This document shows positions 2,353-52,731 of a stretch of DNA of 52,731 nt, one piece after another. Source of the DNA: a virus; IMG/VR virus record IMGVR_UViG_3300050821_009259, positions 1 through 52,731 of that record; one strand, written 5' to 3'. Positions within the stretch are counted from its first letter, which is position 1, and each line of letters starts with the position of its first letter. Made by a program: the position numbers and the translations under genes. The notes beneath the pieces are model-generated. The model worked only from the letters and a program-made list of their open reading frames with translations, was not told the DNA's origin and searched no databases.

Positions 2353-2746
2353 TTCAATTCACTATTCCGCCTTTGACATGAACACAATTACCATCGAAGA
2401 AATATCGGCGGCGTGCCACGACGCGACCGTTCCTGTAATTAACAAGAATCCAAATCGACAATTGGAGCGTTGGGAAAAATCCTCTGATAGAGATCGTGAT
2501 TTGTCACGGTTATGGACGGTGTTTTTACTTGAAAATCCAAACGCTTGTGTCAAGGACTTGATTGTATTCGCAGATCAACCGCGAGACAATGGAAGTGCGG
2601 TCCGTGTTGGTCGACCGATAATCCCGGCATCAGAAGACGAGGCGGAATTTGACCTGTACCTTTCCGCGTTCAGGGCATTGGAAGTTTTGATAAAAAGCAG
2701 GGGTTGGACCGTTACGCCTTATAGTCCAACTCGCTCTCCCGCCTGA
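2342..2746 (+). CDS. Hypothetical protein, convergent with terL
   Basis: A 134-residue frame; ATG 2378 (MNTITIEE) is an alternative start giving 122 residues. It is acidic and helical (EISAACHDATVPVINK and DEAEFDLYLSAFRALEVL) with no recognised motif. The last 35 bases overlap the 3' end of terL on the other strand, so the two transcripts converge. No clear terminator is visible at the junction. Confidence 0.6.
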   Translation: MPRNSIHYSAFDMNTITIEEISAACHDATVPVINKNPNRQLERWEKSSDRDRDLSRLWTVFLLENPNACVKDLIVFADQPRDNGSAVRVGRPIIPASEDEAEFDLYLSAFRALEVLIKSRGWTVTPYSPTRSPA

Positions 2747-5489
2747 ACCGTCCCTGCCTCTCGCGCAGGTCGCTCCATTCGGTGTTGTCGAAACTGTCGT
2801 GCTCCTGATTGGCGAGCTTTGAGACTTGGAAGCCACGGCGGCGAGCGCCTTCAACGCAGATGGATAGCCAGTCGAACAAGTCAGGTGAGCGGCCTGTCCG
2901 CTCCTTCATTTTCAGCTTTGTTTCGACTTCGATTTTGTCGCCCTTCACCATGTCCCATTCGCGCATGCAACCCTCGTCCATGACATCCTCTGGCAGGTTG
3001 CGTATCTGACCGGCTTCGATGGCGTAGCGCACGCTGAACCATAGTTCCGTGACGAACTTGCTATAGTGCTCGTTGCATAGCTTTAGACGGCGCTGGCGTG
3101 ATTTGTCGTCGTAAATGAATAGGTCGAGTGACACCGGTCGGTCGGTTGGATTGCCGCCGAACTCCACAGGGTTCGTCATGGCCGACCAGATGCGTGCCAG
3201 CGCGGTGCCGAGCGAGCCTCTGCCTGTGGCATCGTGGTACATGTTCTCTGGCGGTATCCCCATTGTGGTGCATTCGCCGAACACAAATGCCGCAATCTGA
3301 TCTTCCGCAGATTCCTTGGATGCCTTCACAGGGATGATTTTGGGCGCGTGAACGTTCAGCACAATCTTGCCATCAATGTCCTCACCGAACTCGACCGCGC
3401 CGCCAACGCAGCGATCTCCGCCGTAGGCCGCGTCCACGCCGTAAATCTTGGTCAGCGAAGTGCCTTTCCATTTCACGTCCTCAGTGGCTCCGAACTGAAT
3501 GCACATGTCCCTAGTAATGACTCGACGGGCGAGTGAACTGACCTTCATTGACCCGACGCACTGGCTGTTGTACTCGAAAGAATCCTTGCCGAAAAATGCT
3601 TCCGTGCGCTCGATGTTTTTGCGCTTTATGAGGTAGGGATAAAGCTCCTTTTCCTGATCGAAATTCGGCGAGTCTGTGCCAATCAGGTTAACGCACATGC
3701 CGTCGAGCATCTTCGTTTTCCATGTAGTTGTCTTGGTCGGCTCCATGTGACCGGCCCATCCGTCAACCGGCTCGGATGCCTTTCCAAGAGGGTCGATTGG
3801 GTCGTTGGGGTTGCCAAGAACCACGGCCCGAAAATCGCCGTTCGTTTCCAGATTTGAGAACGCGGAAAGGAACGAGATGGACATATACTGCGCCTCGTCA
3901 GCGATCAACCTGATGCGCTTCTGCTTGATGCCGCAGTTGTGAACGAGACAGCCGTTTACGCTGTAGCTCGGATGTCCTGCAACTTGGATATTGTGGACTG
4001 TATAGCCTCCTTGACCCTCGTTGTATCGCGCATCACTTCCACGTTCGAGAACCTCAATACGGTCCACCCTTTTGCGTTCAAAAACTTGGTTCTTTTGGCG
4101 TCCTTCTGCTGTTGAACTTTTTCCCGATGGCTGTACCCATCGACTTCCACATTCAGTTTTATGTCCAGCCACGCGAAGTCCAGATAGTAAAGGTGGGCGT
4201 CTCCCCAACGTGAACTTTTGCCGGTCGGAATGCAGTGATTGTAAGCCGCTCTCGGAAACAGAGCCGAAATTACTTTTTCCTGCCTCGTCATTGAGTGGCC
4301 GACGCCAAACCCGCCTTGCGTACGATTTTTCAGCATTTCGGGAAGCAGCCTCTTGATATTGTCGCTGCGACGTTTCAACTCCTTCGGATTGGCTCGAAGT
4401 GTCGCGCTGATTTTCTTTCCGGTCGCAACGTAATCTTGGCCCGCTCTCACCTTGTCCAAATAACCGGGCTGTTTCCATATCCACTTCGCAGAACAATGTC
4501 TGGAACAAAAAGTTACGCGCTGCTCTGACGGAATAAATTTCGTTTTGCACTGAACACAAGGCTTTTCCCAAGTGCTGTGCTGGCACTTCTTGGAACAGTA
4601 TTTCCTTGTCCCGTGACAGCCTTTCATATCCTTCTTGCAGACAATACATTGCTTCATCCGTGGAGATTAGCTCGTGTTGTGTAGATATGTCAATCGCATT
4701 TACCCAACCCAATTGAGTCAGGAACGGGTGTTCCGGGGTGCATTCGATTGATTGCCCGTTCGTCAGGTGAATGCGGAGCAAGGTGTCGGTCGGTCTTTTA
4801 AATGTCGCCTCTACTGGCATGGCGCCAGCAGCAGACCACACCACGTCGCCCGGTCGAATCTGCTCGATGGATATAGGGCCGGTTGGTGTGTCAACCAGTG
4901 TTCCAGAACGGAAGCAGAACTTGCCAAGGCCGACGAACTTGCCATTTTGGATACACGGGATTCCCTTGATGCCCTTCCTCCAATCCCTCACACGGCGTTC
5001 ATCCATATCCTTGTCGTCAATTTTGTCGGTGGCTATGAACAGCTTTGAATCAAGCAAGTGGCCGGGGATCACGTCAGGATATGCGTCTTTCGCCATCTGC
5101 CATAGTGATGTAATCTCGCCCCACGCCCTCAATCGAAGCCCTTCAATATGCGTCGACGAAACGCCCAAAAATAGTTCATCTGGAAAGCACATGTATTCCA
5201 CCAAGTAAATCCACGAAGCCTCATTTGTTTTGCCTGAGCTTGCGCAGCCGAGCAGCGTCGTGAACTTGTTCGCCAGAATCGTATCTCTGCACAACCGGTG
5301 CCAGCGATGGTCGTCCAAGTGCGGCCAGAGAATGTTCCGCACACGCTCGTAGTGGAACGGCAAGCCCTCTCCGCATTGCTTTCCGGTCTTCTCAGACATC
5401 CACCTGCCGCCCGCGCGGATGCACTCCATCTCGACAACCAGATCAGAAGTCCCGTCCTCGAATTTTGCCCCGTAGCGTTCGATTGGCAT
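2712..5489 (-). CDS. terL: Terminase large subunit (ATPase-nuclease) interrupted by an intein
   Basis: A 925-residue precursor from ATG 5489 (MPIERYG); ATG 5522 adds 11 residues. The ATPase has Walker A GCASSGKT (about residues 81-88) and Walker B LIADEA (about 528-533), with a 327-residue intein between them, immediately before Walker B. After splicing the protein would be about 598 residues, normal for TerL. The nuclease domain shows the RNase H-like acidic pattern: YGVDAAYGGDR, then HDATGRG, then RSPDLFDW near the C-terminus. It translocates DNA into the capsid through the portal and cuts it. It is the only - strand gene in this late region and stands alone between + strand genes. No small terminase subunit was recognised. 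Confidence 0.93.
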   Translation of the reverse strand: MPIERYGAKFEDGTSDLVVEMECIRAGGRWMSEKTGKQCGEGLPFHYERVRNILWPHLDDHRWHRLCRDTILANKFTTLLGCASSGKTNEASWIYLVEYMCFPDELFLGVSSTHIEGLRLRAWGEITSLWQMAKDAYPDVIPGHLLDSKLFIATDKIDDKDMDERRVRDWRKGIKGIPCIQNGKFVGLGKFCFRSGTLVDTPTGPISIEQIRPGDVVWSAAGAMPVEATFKRPTDTLLRIHLTNGQSIECTPEHPFLTQLGWVNAIDISTQHELISTDEAMYCLQEGYERLSRDKEILFQEVPAQHLGKALCSVQNEIYSVRAARNFLFQTLFCEVDMETARLFGQGESGPRLRCDRKENQRDTSSQSEGVETSQRQYQEAASRNAEKSYARRVWRRPLNDEAGKSNFGSVSESGLQSLHSDRQKFTLGRRPPLLSGLRVAGHKTECGSRWVQPSGKSSTAEGRQKNQVFERKRVDRIEVLERGSDARYNEGQGGYTVHNIQVAGHPSYSVNGCLVHNCGIKQKRIRLIADEAQYMSISFLSAFSNLETNGDFRAVVLGNPNDPIDPLGKASEPVDGWAGHMEPTKTTTWKTKMLDGMCVNLIGTDSPNFDQEKELYPYLIKRKNIERTEAFFGKDSFEYNSQCVGSMKVSSLARRVITRDMCIQFGATEDVKWKGTSLTKIYGVDAAYGGDRCVGGAVEFGEDIDGKIVLNVHAPKIIPVKASKESAEDQIAAFVFGECTTMGIPPENMYHDATGRGSLGTALARIWSAMTNPVEFGGNPTDRPVSLDLFIYDDKSRQRRLKLCNEHYSKFVTELWFSVRYAIEAGQIRNLPEDVMDEGCMREWDMVKGDKIEVETKLKMKERTGRSPDLFDWLSICVEGARRRGFQVSKLANQEHDSFDNTEWSDLRERQGRFRRESELDYKA
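3936..4916 (-). other. Intein within TerL
   Basis: The intein spans precursor residues about 192-518. Block A is CFRSGTLVDTPTGPISIE followed by RPGDVV, and block B is CTPEHPFLTQLGW, with the His expected to assist the N-S shift. The C-terminal blocks are HPSYSVNGCLVHN followed by an extein Cys. Cys1, the penultimate His, the terminal Asn and the +1 Cys are all present, so splicing should be active. The 230 or so residues between the splicing blocks have no homing-endonuclease motifs in this frame. That DNA instead encodes an endonuclease in another frame (3956-4657). Confidence 0.93.
3956..4657 (-). CDS. Vsr/DUF559-like homing endonuclease with zinc fingers, overprinted inside the TerL intein
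   Basis: A 233-residue protein on the same strand as terL but in a different frame, lying wholly inside the intein. The N-terminus holds two treble-clef-like cysteine pairs (CIVCKKDM with KYCSKKC; CVQCKTKF with TFCSRHC). A basic helical linker follows, then a PD-(D/E)XK/Vsr-type core: YYLDFAWLDIKLNVEVDGYSH, split here as the acidic residue in YLDF and the EVDGYSH motif, then KDAKRTKFLNAKGW and VLRFSN. Vsr-like homing endonucleases are known from inteins and introns. It presumably promotes spread of the intein by cutting intein-less terL. I see no ribosome-binding site before ATG 4657, so the real start is uncertain. Confidence 0.85.
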   Translation of the reverse strand: MKQCIVCKKDMKGCHGTRKYCSKKCQHSTWEKPCVQCKTKFIPSEQRVTFCSRHCSAKWIWKQPGYLDKVRAGQDYVATGKKISATLRANPKELKRRSDNIKRLLPEMLKNRTQGGFGVGHSMTRQEKVISALFPRAAYNHCIPTGKSSRWGDAHLYYLDFAWLDIKLNVEVDGYSHREKVQQQKDAKRTKFLNAKGWTVLRFSNVEVMRDTTRVKEAIQSTISKLQDIRATA

Positions 5490-20810: not shown

Positions 20811-21761
20811 TTATTGCTGTACCATCCAACTTTCCGGCTCTGTGGCCGACCAGCCGTTTCGTTCCCATTTCGCGCAGGCCAGTTTTTCATAGTCCGGCCA
20901 CACGCCGGTTTTGAGGCACTGACAGTAAAGCGACAGCGCGTCACGATATTGCATTCTGCCGATCTCCAGGAACTCAGAAGACAGCCATCTTCTCCCAAGC
21001 TGATACGGCGGGATGTTCTCAGAAAGTACGTGCATCCAACCCGTTCGGCCCTCGTGCGTCGCGGCCTCGTAGCAGTCTAAATAAGCTGCCGCTTGCACGG
21101 CGTATCCGTGCGCAAACACTTCCTTTGGCCATACTCGCGGGTGAGCCGACCGGCAAGTCTTCAAATCCGCAAGCGTGTTGTGAAACCCATCCGTGGGGTT
21201 CGTGGGAACAATGTCCACGAGAATCTTGAACGGCACGACGATGCCTTTCGCCTTATCCAGCCAGTCCGCCGTCACCATGACCGAACGCTTGGCCCCGTCG
21301 AGCAGTGAGGCAATCTGCTTGTCGGCCAGGAGCAGATCTGCCGCGTGTTTGGCCGCTTGGTAGTCGTCCTGCTTGAGGCATACGATCCCGGCGGATTCAC
21401 GCTCTGACATCCAATCGTCGCAGTACGTGGCACCGCGATTCCACGTCTTATCGACTGGCTGCTTCTTGCGGTCTTGTCCGGGATACGTGGCCGGGCAAAT
21501 GGCATATCGTTTCTCGAACTGATGCGGCTGCAACACAAGGCAGTCGATCAGGTTGCCCCAATCTGTCGCGTCCGTCTCCTTGTCCTCGACGCCAGCCAGC
21601 CAGCGGGCCGGGCAGTGCGCGAACTCGGTTAGCTCGCTGCGGGACATGACAAACTTCGGGTCGCCACGTTTCGGAACATTTCCCCTGTCGTCAATCGGCT
21701 GAAACAAATGATATTTCAACGGGTCAACATCGCTGCCGATTACTTTGCCGGATTGCCACAT
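20811..21761 (-). CDS. RecE-like PD-(D/E)XK exonuclease
   Basis: 316 residues. Motifs of the RecE/exodeoxyribonuclease VIII family occur in order: SRSELTEFAHCPARWLAG, the helix GNLIDCLVLQPHQFEKRY, the metal-binding VDIVP and TLADLKTCRS (D then D-x-K, about residues 180-205), and HGYAVQAAAYLDCY (the Q-x-x-x-Y motif). The enzyme would digest duplex ends 5' to 3' to leave single strands for annealing. It works naturally with the Sak4/RecA-like ATPase encoded just upstream and the SSB at 31.9 kb. Confidence 0.82.
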   Translation of the reverse strand: MWQSGKVIGSDVDPLKYHLFQPIDDRGNVPKRGDPKFVMSRSELTEFAHCPARWLAGVEDKETDATDWGNLIDCLVLQPHQFEKRYAICPATYPGQDRKKQPVDKTWNRGATYCDDWMSERESAGIVCLKQDDYQAAKHAADLLLADKQIASLLDGAKRSVMVTADWLDKAKGIVVPFKILVDIVPTNPTDGFHNTLADLKTCRSAHPRVWPKEVFAHGYAVQAAAYLDCYEAATHEGRTGWMHVLSENIPPYQLGRRWLSSEFLEIGRMQYRDALSLYCQCLKTGVWPDYEKLACAKWERNGWSATEPESWMVQQ

Positions 21762-22432: not shown

Positions 22433-22768
22433 TCAGTCTCGCATCTGCTCTGGTGGTTGGTTGTATGGATAAATTCTCTTCTCTCGCTTAATCCAAGTAG
22501 GCCAGTCACACATACGACGACCGGCATCAAATGTTTTCTCAATCGGATACCACCAAGTATTGCCGTTCTCTAGTCGCACTGAAAGATATTCGGTCGGATG
22601 ATCGTCGTGATTCACAATTCCGAATCCTTTGTATTTCTCACATTCCACGTAAACGACCGAGCGGAGCGGCCTATGTTCTTCACGCCACGCCTTCAACTTC
22701 TTGCTGGCCAATTTGTAGGCCGCAACAAGCTCTTTGATCTCGTCATCCATTCCATCGACTGCTGTCAT
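22433..22768 (-). CDS. Hypothetical protein with an SH3-like beta core
   Basis: 111 residues from ATG 22768, preceded by AGAAAGG. The frame is open back to 22981, but that part crosses a strong hairpin and lies in the structured non-coding region, so the short form is preferred. It starts with a helix (DDEIKELVAAYKLASKKLKA), then a beta core (YKGFGIVNHDDHPTEYLSV, ENGNTWWYPIEK). Small phage proteins of this pattern are of unknown function. Confidence 0.6.
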   Translation of the reverse strand: MTAVDGMDDEIKELVAAYKLASKKLKAWREEHRPLRSVVYVECEKYKGFGIVNHDDHPTEYLSVRLENGNTWWYPIEKTFDAGRRMCDWPTWIKREKRIYPYNQPPEQMRD

Positions 22769-22815
22769 AGTGCCTTTCTGCTCGCTTGGAATAAGTTCCA
22801 GAGCCGAGCCTGAGC

Positions 22816-22850
22816 AAAAGGGTGCCCTTGATCTCTCAAAGTACCCTTTT
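22816..22850 (-). terminator. Strong hairpin at the 3' side of the structured region
   Basis: AAAAGGGT (22816-22823) pairs perfectly with ACCCTTTT (22843-22850), with a further four-pair inner stem around TTGA/TCAA. On the - strand it is followed by only four T before GC, so it may act as a processing or stability hairpin as much as a terminator. It separates the structured region from the gene at 22768. Confidence 0.5.
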
Positions 22851-23092
22851 TCGCTTGGCGCATACGTTCCGTCGCGTCGCCGTCGCTTAAAGTTTTCTGG
22901 CATCGTCCAGCGGTCGCTAACCGAGACTTGGCTCTTTCGCGGCTTGCCATCGTACCAAGGCCGTGATGTCCAGCCCCGCATTGAGTCAGTAGGTGCCCTC
23001 GCTGACTCCGCTCATTCGGATACAGGCCCGCCGTACGCGGATGTCCTGTTCTTACGCGGTTCGATTCTATGGGAGTCCTGTATTCTCTGAAC

Positions 23093-23261
23093 TGGTGCCC
23101 CGTGACGGGATTTAAACCCGCAAGCCTCATCGCCATTCGGATTGGCGTTCGGCAGGCTGGAAGCCGGTTGTCCGACACAACCGCAATCATTTCTGACTGC
23201 ATCCCACTAAAGGGATGATCTTTGACACTAGCCCGCGTCTTTGCATTGCGCCACAAGGGGC
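23093..23261 (-). ncRNA. tRNA-like element, about 169 nt, with T-arm and encoded ACCA
   Basis: Read on the - strand the element begins GCCCCTTG and ends CACGGGGC-ACCA, giving an acceptor-like stem with one mismatch. A perfect-looking T-arm (GCGGG, loop TTTAAAT, CCCGT, at 23105-23121) precedes it. After the 5' arm comes a D-arm-like GCG...CGC, very like tRNA-Leu (GTGGCGCAATG, then AGACGC). Between these parts lie three or four extra hairpins, so it is about twice the length of a tRNA. The T-loop has T at position 56 instead of C. It could be a degenerate tRNA with an insertion, or a tRNA-like domain of a bigger RNA. Confidence 0.45.
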
Positions 23262-23437
23262 ATCTATTCAGAGAACAATGGAAATGAATCCCGCTTGGGG
23301 TAGTAAAGCTCTTGGAAGGAAGCCCGGCTGGACAGCCGACCCAAGCGGAAAGTGACTCGCTCGACAACTTGCGCTTCCAAATCTGGTTACTACACCAGCA
23401 TCGAACAGCGCCAATATGGCAGACGGTGGACATGTTG

Positions 23438-24523
23438 TCAACTCCCAACATCAGGACGTGGCATTTTCTTCCGGGCCATGACCAGCGCGGCGGAAAGCTC
23501 TTTTTCGGACAAGTCGGCCAGCGGGACCGCCGGGTCAATGCAGGCTTCGTCAACGAGCCATTGGCGCATGACGGCCATATCGCCTTGGTGGATGGGCTTG
23601 AGCAGGTCGTGAAGCTCCTTCTTGAGCGCGGCCTTCAAGTCTTTCGCTCCCGTAATTGGCTTTGTCGTCGGTTTAGCCGTCTCGCGGGCCTCGCCGCCAC
23701 ACAGCGCCAAGAGCTTCTCCGCGTGCTCGAATTTGAACTGCTCGCCGTTCTTGGGCATCGCAGCCGCAATGTCAGGGTGAGTCGTCTTCGTTCCTTGAGC
23801 CAGTGGCAGCGTGAAGTAACAGTACCCGCCTTCGCCCTTTTCGTTTTGCTGGACGCGGCCAACCGCCAACGCGGTGCGTGTAAGTCCAGACTCCTGAATT
23901 GGTGACTCAAAATCGTCCGGCTTGAACGTCTTCGCGTTGTACTTTTGTTTGGCCTGAAACAGCATGATGACATTGCATTTCGAGGACGTGATTTTGCTCA
24001 CCAGCTTTCCGTGAGTCCAGGGCTTGACGTGCGCGGCGGCGGATGACGCGACTTTTGCCTCTGATGTGTTGGGATTGGCTTTGAGCATCTTCTCAACCTC
24101 GTCGGACTTTAGGTCCAGGTACCCGCCGTCGCTGTCCCAAGCCTGAGTCATGCAGTCGGGCACAATGGTTTTGCATCCGGCCTGCTCCAGTACATCCACA
24201 GCCGCCACGACGCGCAATGGATTGAATGGCGGGTCAAGGTGCAGCACCTTAAACCGCGCAACCCAATCGGCCTTTGTTCCGCCATATCGCTGTGCGGCCA
24301 TCGTGGCCACAATATCAATGGCCCATCCACTACGGTGTCCCTCGCCGTCGATCCAGCCGATCAGACCTTTTGGCGTGATTCCGACCGCCGCAATTCCGGC
24401 AGTCACAGACTTACCACCGCCAACACCCCCAAAAAATGCCAGCCGGATTGCCTGCGTCGAAATGACCGGCGCTTCGAGGGTCATGTCCTTTTTGAATGCG
24501 TCAACTTGTTGTTTCCAGTCCAT
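23438..24523 (-). CDS. RecA/Sak4-like AAA ATPase for recombination
   Basis: 361 residues. Walker A is FFGGVGGGKS (about residues 31-39); candidates for Walker B are the hydrophobic strands ending CKTIVPDCMTQAWD and CNVIMLFQAKQKY. The ATPase core is about 230 residues; the C-terminal 100 residues are a separate helical region (AKDLKAALKKELHDLLKPIH). Size and layout fit phage Sak4-type single-strand annealing/RecA-fold ATPases, which cooperate with SSB. With the RecE-like nuclease and RusA-like frames in the same operon, a recombination role is likely. A DNA-packaging or transport ATPase is less likely. Confidence 0.68.
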   Translation of the reverse strand: MDWKQQVDAFKKDMTLEAPVISTQAIRLAFFGGVGGGKSVTAGIAAVGITPKGLIGWIDGEGHRSGWAIDIVATMAAQRYGGTKADWVARFKVLHLDPPFNPLRVVAAVDVLEQAGCKTIVPDCMTQAWDSDGGYLDLKSDEVEKMLKANPNTSEAKVASSAAAHVKPWTHGKLVSKITSSKCNVIMLFQAKQKYNAKTFKPDDFESPIQESGLTRTALAVGRVQQNEKGEGGYCYFTLPLAQGTKTTHPDIAAAMPKNGEQFKFEHAEKLLALCGGEARETAKPTTKPITGAKDLKAALKKELHDLLKPIHQGDMAVMRQWLVDEACIDPAVPLADLSEKELSAALVMARKKMPRPDVGS

Positions 24524-40874: not shown

Positions 40875-41024
40875 ATGAAGACGGAAATTTCGGACAAGAA
40901 GAAACCGAAGACTGAGTTAATCTGCGACCAGCAGAAGTTGCGCGAAGAACTCAAACGCTCACGCGAGCAGCACACGACTAAAATCCATGACCGACCTGTC
41001 CCAAAAAACGGCGCTGGTGTTTGA
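40875..41024 (+). CDS. Possible small basic protein after the portal
   Basis: 49 residues (MKTEISDKKKPKTELICDQQ). Highly charged. It overlaps the ATP-grasp gene by 38 bases in another frame. A competing 19-residue frame starts at 40856 and ends at 40915 (MPEEYPDEDGNFGQ). Either may be translated; evidence is weak. Confidence 0.35.
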   Translation: MKTEISDKKKPKTELICDQQKLREELKRSREQHTTKIHDRPVPKNGAGV

Positions 41025-42276
41025 CCACGGGAATTATCTTGAGACGGCCATCGCGCTGTCCAAGGGATTCGGCAAGGTGCTATACCATGTGCCGTGGGAG
41101 TTTGGAACCAGCCACTTGAACGACGCGATGGTCGGCGAAGGGTTTGACGAGATCGAAGTTTGTCCAGACCCGTTTGACCCCGATGTGCTGTCCAAGATCG
41201 ACATCTGCGTGTTTCCCGACGTGCAACACGGCGGCCTGCAACTGCTGCTGGAAAGCCTTGGCAAACGAGTGTGGGGGTCGCGCAAGGCCGACCGATTGGA
41301 ACTCGACCGCGAGTTTCTCAAGGAGCATCAGGCCAAGATTGGCATGGATGTCCCGCCGCACGATGTCGTTGTTGGAATGAAGGAGCTTGAGCGTTACCTG
41401 ATCGACCACGACGGCGAGGAACTTTACATCAAGGTCAGCAAATATCGCGGGAGTTGGGAAACCAAGAAGTTTACGAAGCTCTCGCTGATTCGCGGCTGGC
41501 TGGACATCAAGCGCATCGAGTTCAACGCGGCTCAAAATGACGTGCCGTTCGTGATTGAGAAGAAGATCAACGCCAAGGTCGAAGTCGGCGGTGACATGAT
41601 CTGCATCGATGGCAGGATTCCCAGCATCGTCATGCACGGCCCGGAGATCAAAAACAAAGCGTATATCGGCGTCGTTACTCCTTACGACAAACTGCCGGAC
41701 GAGATCAAAGAGGCGAACGAATTTGTGATGCCGTTCATGCGCAAAGAGCGTTTCCGAAACTTCTGGACGATGGAGATGCGCGACACCTACCTGACTGACC
41801 CGACGTGCCGGATGCCGTCGCCAGCCGGGGAAGCGCAGATGGCGAACTACAAAAACCTGTGTGAGATCATTTGGGAGGGCGCTGCCGGTGAATTGGTTGA
41901 GCCTGAGACACGGTTTAAATACGTGGTACAGGTCATGGTCGAGCACGATGACAATCCGCGTGGCGGTCGAGTGGTCGAAATCCCGGACTCAATTCGTGAC
42001 TGCGTGTTCATCTCAAACGCCTGCAAGATGGACGGCCTGTATCATCTCGTGCCGCAACCGGAGCCGTGCGATGAGTCATTCGGTTGGGTGCTTGGCATGG
42101 GCGACACGATTCAAGAGGCGGTCGATCACTGCAAGGAAGTGGCTGAGAAGCTGAAAGACCAGCCAGTGACAGTGCATCTGGAAGCCCTCGTTGACGCCGT
42201 GCAGGCCGTGCAGGAGGAAGAAGACGCGGGCATTGATTTTGCCAAGCAGGTGCCCGAGCCTGCGGACGTTTTGTAA
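40987..42276 (+). CDS. ATP-grasp-like enzyme in the head operon
   Basis: 429 residues. N-terminal pre-ATP-grasp-like fold: TALVFDHGNYLETAIALSKG and IDICVFPDVQHGGLQLLLES. The central part has the ATP-grasp pattern: LYIKVSKYRGSWETKKF (Lys and loop), FVIEKKINAKVEVGGDMICI (the E-E hinge) and MRDTYLTDPTCRMPSPAGEAQ, where the carboxylates that bind magnesium would lie. It resembles phosphoribosylglycinamide-synthetase-like phage enzymes of unknown substrate. ATP-grasp enzymes ligate a carboxylate to an amine. Within a capsid operon it could modify a virion protein or a nucleotide precursor. Confidence 0.5.
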   Translation: MTDLSQKTALVFDHGNYLETAIALSKGFGKVLYHVPWEFGTSHLNDAMVGEGFDEIEVCPDPFDPDVLSKIDICVFPDVQHGGLQLLLESLGKRVWGSRKADRLELDREFLKEHQAKIGMDVPPHDVVVGMKELERYLIDHDGEELYIKVSKYRGSWETKKFTKLSLIRGWLDIKRIEFNAAQNDVPFVIEKKINAKVEVGGDMICIDGRIPSIVMHGPEIKNKAYIGVVTPYDKLPDEIKEANEFVMPFMRKERFRNFWTMEMRDTYLTDPTCRMPSPAGEAQMANYKNLCEIIWEGAAGELVEPETRFKYVVQVMVEHDDNPRGGRVVEIPDSIRDCVFISNACKMDGLYHLVPQPEPCDESFGWVLGMGDTIQEAVDHCKEVAEKLKDQPVTVHLEALVDAVQAVQEEEDAGIDFAKQVPEPADVL

Positions 42277-46387: not shown

Positions 46388-46422
46388 CACTTTTAGGCCA
46401 AACATTACGAGGCCATAAAATA

Positions 46423-46457
46423 GACGCCGGGAGTGGCCAAAAGGCTGTCCCGGCGTC
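46423..46457 (+). terminator. Terminator or attenuator hairpin before the capsid gene
   Basis: A perfect 10-bp stem GACGCCGGGA (46423-46432) with TCCCGGCGTC (46448-46457); the 15-base loop contains a further GCC/GGC pair. The T-run after it is weak (CGCGTTTTG). The 295-base gap before the capsid gene (46388-46682) holds this, a parS-like site and a promoter box. Confidence 0.65.
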
Positions 46458-46464
46458 CGCGTTT

Positions 46465-46480
46465 TGTTCCACGTAGAACA
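46465..46480. promoter_or_regulatory. parS-like site (two mismatches)
   Basis: TGTTCCACGTAGAACA agrees with the ParB-site consensus TGTTNCACGTGAAACA at all but two defined bases and is itself near-palindromic. It lies 18 bases before a TTGACA box. See the perfect site at 12284. Confidence 0.4.
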
Positions 46481-46497
46481 ATTTCCTAAAATACGCC

Positions 46498-46526
46498 TTG
46501 ACAGATTCGGTAACGTTAACGTAATT
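46498..46526 (+). promoter_or_regulatory. Probable capsid-gene promoter
   Basis: TTGACA (46498-46503), 17 bases, GTAATT (46521-46526). A palindrome CGTTAACG (46513-46520) sits in the spacer and could be an operator. With a terminator before and another after, the major capsid gene appears to be its own transcription unit. Confidence 0.5.
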
Positions 46527-46682
46527 CTGTATCAGCGTAGGCTGAAGTCGCTTCAGCAATTCGGTGTTTCGCCGCACTCACCAGCGGCAATGGCGTAAAA
46601 GAGGATTCGCCAACCCCAGCAGTCGAGTTGTCATCGGACAGCCGCGACCAATGGCCGTGAAACACTTGAATGAAGCGATTAT

Positions 46683-51583: not shown

Positions 51584-52695
51584 TGAAACTCGCTTCCTTG
51601 ATCGCCCTTCTTTTCTCGCTGGCCCCGCGCCTCTGCGCCCAATCCCAGTTGGCCGCCATCACCAATGACGCTCAGAAAGTCGATTTTTTTGCGATGCCGC
51701 GGCAGGGCGTGGTCGGGAATAACTGGCAGACGACGAACTCGCCGAACTCACTCTGGTTTTCCAGCGATGGACAACTCGCGTTTACGGGCGGCAGCAATAA
51801 CATGTATTTTACCAATATGTCAGGCTTCGCCTCTGCGGGCGTGCCGCTGCCGCCGCCCTTCCCGGCGGTGTATTGCCAAGGTCAGCATTTTTATAACCGA
51901 ATAGATGCGAGTCAACTCACGGTGTTGTGTTACGACGTGGCGATTTTTCCCGGGCGAGGAACGCCGGGCATCATCCGTCCGCCGCACGCGCTTACGAATT
52001 TTTCAACGGTAATTGAATTCGCCGTGGTTGGCGCGAATGTCGGGACAAATTTTTTCAATGGGAATGACCACGACATGTGGAGCATAGAGTATGACCAGAC
52101 CGGTTTGACCGGCTGTCTCACGCAACTCAAATATTACACCAATACGTTGGGCATGGTTTTTCGGCAGGAATCCACGCAAGGAACTGGAACTAATGAAGTG
52201 ACGACCAGATCGCAGGACGTTTCCATCACGCCAAGCAATGCGCCCGCGTGGTTTTTCGCCAGCAACCACGTCGATATGGGCGTGCAGGAGATGTGGTTAC
52301 AGTTGTATAATTCCAATTCCGTGGCGGTTGGGGCGCAGCATTCCACGGCGACGACGACCAATCAGGGCAATACGAGTGTCGTGAAGTTTGATTATTTGCT
52401 GGCGTCGGAGCAGACATTCCCGGACGCGAGTTTTATCATATGCGCCGGGATTTGGATTCATGACGACACTGTGCCGGTGACGTGGGCGGCGGCGAATCCT
52501 GTTGGCGACGACGGCCTCGTCGGATTTCGAGAACCTTCGGAAAGCAATCCGTGGTGGAAGGTGGAATTTATTGGCCGTGACTTGGGGCCGGAACGCGAGC
52601 CTGTGTCGATCATCGCCGGGGCTGTGGCTACTCGCGCATCACCTTTGGTTGAACGAGCGAAACGCTGGTACGATTTTTACAACCACTATGAGTGA
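51583..52695 (+). CDS. Exported beta-rich protein 3
   Basis: 370 residues from ATG 51583, which overlaps the previous stop (TGATG). Signal peptide MKLASLIALLFSLAPRLCAQ. The remainder is beta-rich with many Asn, Thr and Gly (FTGGSNNMYFTNMSG) and conserved-looking WSIEYDQTGLTGCLTQLKYY; no enzyme motif is recognised. It runs to the repeat boundary and overlaps the membrane-protein gene that begins the other end. Confidence 0.6.
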   Translation: MKLASLIALLFSLAPRLCAQSQLAAITNDAQKVDFFAMPRQGVVGNNWQTTNSPNSLWFSSDGQLAFTGGSNNMYFTNMSGFASAGVPLPPPFPAVYCQGQHFYNRIDASQLTVLCYDVAIFPGRGTPGIIRPPHALTNFSTVIEFAVVGANVGTNFFNGNDHDMWSIEYDQTGLTGCLTQLKYYTNTLGMVFRQESTQGTGTNEVTTRSQDVSITPSNAPAWFFASNHVDMGVQEMWLQLYNSNSVAVGAQHSTATTTNQGNTSVVKFDYLLASEQTFPDASFIICAGIWIHDDTVPVTWAAANPVGDDGLVGFREPSESNPWWKVEFIGRDLGPEREPVSIIAGAVATRASPLVERAKRWYDFYNHYE

Positions 52696-52731
52696 AACCA
52701 CGATACTTTGGATATTTGGGGCGTTTATCAC
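52635..52731. repeat. Right copy of 97-bp exact terminal direct repeat
   Basis: Identical to 1-97; see that entry. Removing one copy gives a unique length of 52,634 bases. Confidence 0.95.
52688..52731 (+). CDS. Partial copy of the left-end membrane-protein gene
   Basis: The first 44 bases of the gene at 54-443, present again because of the terminal repeat. Its ATG overlaps the preceding stop (ATGAGTGA), showing the order of genes across the closure. Confidence 0.9.
   Translation, partial: MSETTILWIFGAFI

Follow-up and report, generated by a model that had tools for sequence, protein, structure and literature searches.

A structured, apparently noncoding region with a tRNA-like module in the recombination operon of an uncultured phage

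Introduction

The viral record IMGVR_UViG_3300050821_009259, whose 52,731 nt are here called the window, ends in 97-bp terminal direct repeats (1-97 = 52635-52731) and is therefore probably a complete phage genome. The phage is uncultured, and its minus strand is the sense strand of an early recombination operon, which runs in the order pentapeptide-repeat protein, Sak4-like ATPase, structured region, 111-aa gene, small ORFs and exonuclease VIII (20811-21761). Adjacent minus-strand genes are mostly separated by 0-100 bases or overlap. The original prediction for this DNA had described a gene-free break of about 630 bases in an otherwise compact operon. This was borne out, the true gap being 669 bases (22769-23437, minus strand), the largest in the operon. 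What occupies this gap, and does it encode a protein or an RNA? Among large ornate phage RNAs few classes are known, and their functions are open.

Results

The gap in the operon lacks coding signal

The gap and its neighbours were laid out as follows.

23438-24523, minus strand: upstream gene, an ATPase like Sak4-type recombinases (phrog_1366, E 5.7e-20)
22769-23437, minus strand: structured region that separates the sak4-like gene from the small gene, apparently noncoding (six frames without coding signal; fold z -4.15 to -4.65)
22765-23433, minus strand: 222-codon frame, open from end to end of the region and judged noncoding
22433-22768, minus strand: downstream gene, 111 aa, no function assigned (coding score positive from the ATG at 22768)
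23413-23441, minus strand: promoter-like TTGACA-17-CATATT that carries a TG and overlaps the stop codon of sak4 (consensus match 10/12)

The product of 23438-24523 is one that we take to be Sak4, by our own reading of the phrog_1366 match. The start of the 111-aa gene was placed at the ATG at 22768, because its in-frame extension upstream to 22981 gave no sign of coding (0.013 per codon; -0.039 by amino acids).

The 222-codon frame was the obvious candidate for a gene. It starts with an ATG 5 bases past the sak4 stop, its own stop overlaps the ATG of the next gene (ATGA), and it is open throughout the region; staying open that long in a given frame occurred in about 0.05% of simulated sequences. 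However, the frame scored at the noncoding null both for codons (-0.156 per codon; null -0.118 ± 0.043) and for amino acids (-0.071; null -0.058 ± 0.031). The 62 in-frame windows of homology-supported genes had a mean codon score of +0.169 (minimum -0.076) and a mean amino-acid score of +0.097, and every one of them exceeded the frame in codon score. GC by codon position was flat in the frame (0.53/0.57/0.55, vs 0.58/0.45/0.66 in genes), and 3-base periodicity was absent (p 0.36). A conserved protein across the region, named beforehand by the original prediction as one of two possible refuters, was looked for, and the searches run found no protein family or homologue for the frame. Single-sequence structure prediction of the product was poor (mean pLDDT 41.8). 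On these scores the frame was judged noncoding, and its openness stays an unexplained coincidence. The frame may run open through the structured RNA by chance, or perhaps through low translation that prevents polarity.

Two promoter-like sites of the kind at the sak4 stop were found vs 0.7 expected, and the site was rated a weak candidate promoter because of this ratio. No clear terminator was seen in the region.

The region folds beyond chance

Results showed that the minus strand of the region folds far better than shuffled sequence. The 672-nt region reached a fold z of -4.65 (20 shuffles) and -4.15 (60 shuffles), lower than every one of 66 control tiles of equal length from the same genome (mean z -0.18, sd 1.26, lowest -2.99). 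With coding signal absent as well, the earlier description of an unassigned, highly structured and gene-free region held. Most of the folding signal resides in a 207-nt domain (23076-23282; z -6.54, 0/100 shuffles), and the flanks joined without this domain gave z -3.03 (5' flank alone -2.4, 3' flank alone -1.5). When the strands of a 221-nt stretch were compared, the plus strand (z -3.7) was weaker than the minus strand (-5.6). Among 476 tiles of 221 nt, a single other site was equally structured, namely a stretch upstream of the major capsid gene. A predicted core of about 510 nt had z -6.52, a value that is biased because the borders of the core were taken from the predicted fold itself. 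The elements outside the tRNA-like domain were as follows.

22902-23411, minus strand: predicted structured core of about 510 nt, comprising 5' rod, long-range helices, tRNA-like domain and third domain (predicted fold)
23371-23411, minus strand: 5' rod of three nested helices, GCGCU, UUCGA/UUGGA and CUGGU/ACCAG (pair probabilities 0.90-1.00)
23368-23358/22912-22902 and 23345-23341/22931-22927, minus strand: further long-range helices (predicted fold)
23326-23334, minus strand: 5' arm of a long-range 9-bp helix, UGUCCAGCC (p 0.94; inverted repeat I8)
22967-22975, minus strand: 3' arm of the same helix, GGCUGGACA (p 0.94; inverted repeat I8)
22976-23059, minus strand: third domain, CCGCGU/AUGCGG closing two hairpins, ACAGG..CCUGU and GAGUCAG..CUGACUC (p 0.92-0.99)
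22780-22855, minus strand: two 3' hairpins ahead of the next gene (p 0.71-0.98), within the 3' flank of z -1.5

In the predicted fold, the long-range helices enclose a hairpin (23324-23307), the stalked tRNA-like domain and the third domain (23059-22976). The 9-bp stem and the nested three-helix rod pointed out earlier are both present, with pairing probabilities of 0.9-1, although one perfect 9-bp repeat is by our own estimate at about chance level in 670 nt and is not evidence by itself.

A tRNA-like module sits on a 12-bp stalk

The tRNA-like segment that had been noticed inside the region is real and was located at 23093-23261, where its stems pair and a pattern scan identifies it.

23076-23282, minus strand: main structured domain, a 12-bp stalk (23277-23266/23092-23081) bearing the tRNA-like module (z -6.54; 29-nt inverted repeat I1)
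23093-23261, minus strand: tRNA-like module, a class-II (Leu/Ser-like) cloverleaf with CCA (constrained fold; pattern scan)
23261-23254/23104-23097, minus strand: acceptor GCCCCUUG/CACGGGGC, 8 bp (7/8 pairs, one U.C)
23251-23235, minus strand: D-arm, stem GCG/CGC (constrained fold)
23234-23230/23158-23154, minus strand: anticodon stem GGGCU/AGCCU (constrained fold)
23159-23229, minus strand: enlarged anticodon loop of 71 nt, with hairpins 23216-23201, 23200-23183 and 23182-23166 (probabilities 0.97, 0.98 and 0.70)
23153-23124, minus strand: long, two-part variable arm (constrained fold)
23121-23105, minus strand: T-arm, stem GCGGG/CCCGU, loop UUUAAAU (constrained fold)
23096-23093, minus strand: A73 and CCA (sequence)

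The module can thus form the complete set of cloverleaf stems of a tRNA and ends in CCA; its acceptor contains a single U.C. Unconstrained folding prediction prefers another structure: with all stems paired, the cloverleaf had -86.4 vs -91.9 kcal/mol for the free optimum, a cost of 5.5 kcal/mol. In a scan for the cloverleaf arrangement it was unique in the genome and matched by 2/60,000 shuffles, a figure that overstates its significance because the definition was set after seeing the sequence; by our own estimate the real value is perhaps one in a thousand. Further departures from tRNA are a U in place of C56 in the T-loop, the absence of U33 and a loop that begins A-G. The module is unable to decode normally, because its anticodon loop is 71 nt long and holds three hairpins.

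The 17-base T-arm/acceptor segment GGTTTAAATCCCGTCAC recurred once in IMG/VR, within the tRNA-like module of an otherwise unrelated YrlA-like RNA, and the D-arm UGGCGCAAUGCAAAGACGCG is close to UGGCGCAGUGGUAGACGCG, the D-arm of a true tRNA in the contig carrying that RNA. This YrlA-like element (L082 6342-6521, minus strand; 31.8 bits, E 1.6e-4, under the Rfam cut-off) lies on the viral contig IMGVR_UViG_2651869516_000063, which also carries six tRNA genes.

The region matches no RNA family tested

Rfam gave no match for the region at gathering score and chance hits only at E up to 10, and neither the tRNA-like domain nor its 3' half alone matched a family. ARAGORN at standard threshold found no tRNA, tmRNA or tag frame in the region; with introns allowed and thresholds lowered to 70-80%, it returned only spurious, mutually overlapping calls. 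No tRNA gene was found in the whole 52.7-kb window by tRNA search. The original prediction had suggested a member or relative of GOLLD or ROOL, or a new class. Membership found no support, since neither covariance model gave a match, whether at gathering score or with E relaxed to 10; the scan proposed for tmRNA, group I and II introns and tRNA was likewise negative at both settings. We rejected GOLLD and ROOL on these grounds, ROOL also for the absence of a tRNA island nearby in the 52.7-kb window. Further rejected candidates were a group I or group II intron (no Rfam match to a catalytic core), a YrlA or Y RNA (no Rfam match at E up to 10; arm order not permuted), a decoding tRNA (tRNA models unmatched; no 7-nt anticodon loop with U33) and a tmRNA (no Rfam or ARAGORN match with a tag frame).

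Likenesses to known systems were nevertheless seen. Like GOLLD, the region is large, highly structured and carried by a phage, but it measures about 510-670 nt vs >800 in many GOLLD members and lacks a tRNA island. The association with a tRNA element is a further resemblance to the ornate phage RNAs as a group. tRNAs are present in some GOLLD linkers (PMC12286853). In the window there is no tRNA gene neighbouring the region, and the tRNA-like module is internal to it. ROOL is a multi-domain phage-encoded RNA whose function is not established and which often lies near tRNAs (PMC12286853). The region is also multi-domain and phage-encoded, but has its tRNA-like module inside, whereas ROOL adjoins a tRNA island. 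The size of ROOL is similar to that of the structured region. With tmRNA the region shares a tRNA-like domain whose anticodon arm is exchanged for other structure; it differs in an insert of only 71 nt and a long, Leu/Ser-like variable arm. YrlA (bacterial Y RNA-like, RF02553) is likewise a noncoding RNA with a tRNA-like module, and the YrlA-like RNA of the viral contig has the identical 17-base T-arm segment, but the module of YrlA is permuted, whereas the order in the region is D-arm then T-arm as in tRNA. Class-II tRNAs (tRNA-Leu/Ser, tRNA-Sec) resemble the module in long variable arm, D-arm sequence, T-arm and CCA, and tRNA-Sec also in its 8-bp acceptor; the module differs in its 71-nt anticodon loop, U at 56, missing U33 and 12-bp stalk.

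The region occupies a variable site of the operon

Portal and major capsid scans gathered about 35 related phage records, with capsids up to 79% identical. The region was absent from these records by blastn and by a single-sequence RNA model (R1), had no match in blastn against phages and plasmids, and found no homologue in collection scans. Model R1 also scored 31 bits on the other strand of the window, as expected of a mirror-like fold. No near relative among isolate phages was found for the proteins tested, and protein routes via sak4, the 111-aa gene, the exonuclease and the protein of 40987-42276 yielded no relatives.

Record G012 was the one relative that shares the gene neighbourhood; in it, the module of 69-aa ORF, Sak4-like protein and exonuclease is kept at 28-36% identity, and a 60-aa ORF and an HNH nuclease replace the region. 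At this place (L074 7598-8339), the 60-aa ORF and the HNH endonuclease ORF, with a short GC-rich leader, lie between the sak4-like and exonuclease genes. Because the region is absent in relatives and other genes stand there in G012, the structured region is, as read from gene content, a variable site of the operon.

Two further candidates were set aside. A structured stretch in a near relative (G010, L070 4895-5231) turned out to be protein-coding sequence into which a palindromic repeat had been inserted, and a MITE (29-nt inverted ends, 76%) showed no target duplication by eye. In record G010, a palindromic repeat (protein VAANVSSRPT) resembling the REP type is inserted in frame in at least two genes (L070 4628-5077, 5993-7051).

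Other features of the phage group

The leader of the major capsid gene (window 46388-46682, plus strand) was strongly structured (z -5.6). In many relatives (loci L029-L060), the sequence at the capsid start codon or immediately ahead of it is paired with an upstream arm, and the arms co-vary, as in CATAAAATCG/CGATTTTATG (L030), ACCAAAAGGT/ACTTTTTGGT (L038), CTAAAAGT/ACTTTTAG (L050), ACTTTCAAAG/CTTTGAAAGT (L052) and AGTCGCTTCA/TGAAGCGATT (window). Nearly half of 30 leaders were individually at p <= 0.03, and an AAGUCU...GAGCA hairpin was common to several relatives. The capsid leader looks like a conserved start-codon-sequestering RNA with compensatory change. A 925-aa protein (window 2712-5489, minus strand) is conserved in the phage group. 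It has an intein/Hint domain near residues 190-315, and in most relatives the best alignment covers its C-terminal 400 residues. We infer that it is probably the large terminase with an intein.

Discussion

The best explanation of the gap, held at about even confidence, is that it may encode a structured noncoding RNA with a non-decoding, tRNA-mimicking module for processing, protection or decoy. By analogy, the region would be comparable to ornate phage RNAs carrying tRNAs, and by model match it belongs to no family tested. We counted against this explanation the lack of a homologue, the silence of tRNA finders and Rfam, the imperfect tRNA features, the rare coincidence of the open frame and the weak promoter.

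Several of these points also fit the main rival, a decaying, once-functional phage tRNA-Leu that took up about 65 nt in its anticodon loop, within nonfunctional filler from gene turnover after sak4. As a tRNA the module is imperfect (U at 56, no U33, U.C in the acceptor), and tRNA programs reject it; moreover, the site turns over, G012 having a 60-aa ORF and an HNH nuclease there, and no relative keeps the region. However, the flanks outside the tRNA-like domain also fold above chance (z -3.0), an unbroken 12-bp stalk flanks the tRNA ends, and the insert consists of three tidy hairpins, whereas a relic would be expected to lose its stems first. We regard decay as unlikely, while giving it more weight than any other rival.

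Quite unlikely is a cis-acting intercistronic mRNA element, whose fold would uncouple sak4 from the later genes or direct RNase cleavage with no separate RNA formed. The region does fill the space between two genes of the operon, reads in the sense orientation and has no clear terminator, but it is far bigger than usual intercistronic elements, which would have no need of a tRNA-like module. That the frame 22765-23433 encodes an unusual protein is very unlikely, given the coding scores set out above. An attP-like copy of a host tRNA 3' end for integration is improbable in the extreme: T-arm, acceptor and CCA resemble a tRNA 3' end, but the 5' half of the module is present too, the T-loop/acceptor 19-mer matched only two protein genes and no tRNA, host or other, in 84,980 genomes, and no integrase was seen among the proteins scanned.

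If the gap encodes a structured noncoding RNA, it would be transcribed with the early recombination operon and perhaps, in addition, from the promoter-like sequence that overlaps the sak4 stop, and the RNA would fold into a compact particle of about 510 nt that persists as RNA. The tRNA-like module, because it is unable to decode normally, would most likely be a mimic engaging host tRNA-binding proteins; candidate partners are RNase P, leucyl- or seryl-tRNA synthetase and a tRNA-cutting defence nuclease. It could stabilise the RNA and set its processing, or it could act as a decoy during infection with the remaining RNA as scaffold, and a choice between these roles would be a guess. More tentatively, and with doubt outweighing belief, the region might be the first member of a new ornate phage RNA class, characterised by about 510 nt and by a class-II tRNA mimic that does not decode and stands on a 12-bp stalk. 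Such an RNA would be expressed with recombination genes and would act either as a particle or by decoying host proteins that bind or cut tRNA.

If the region is only a relic, it would be a caution that a high folding score and a tRNA look alone do not make an RNA class. If it is an ornate RNA with a built-in tRNA-like module, it would tie the class to tRNA processing, charging and anticodon-nuclease defence.
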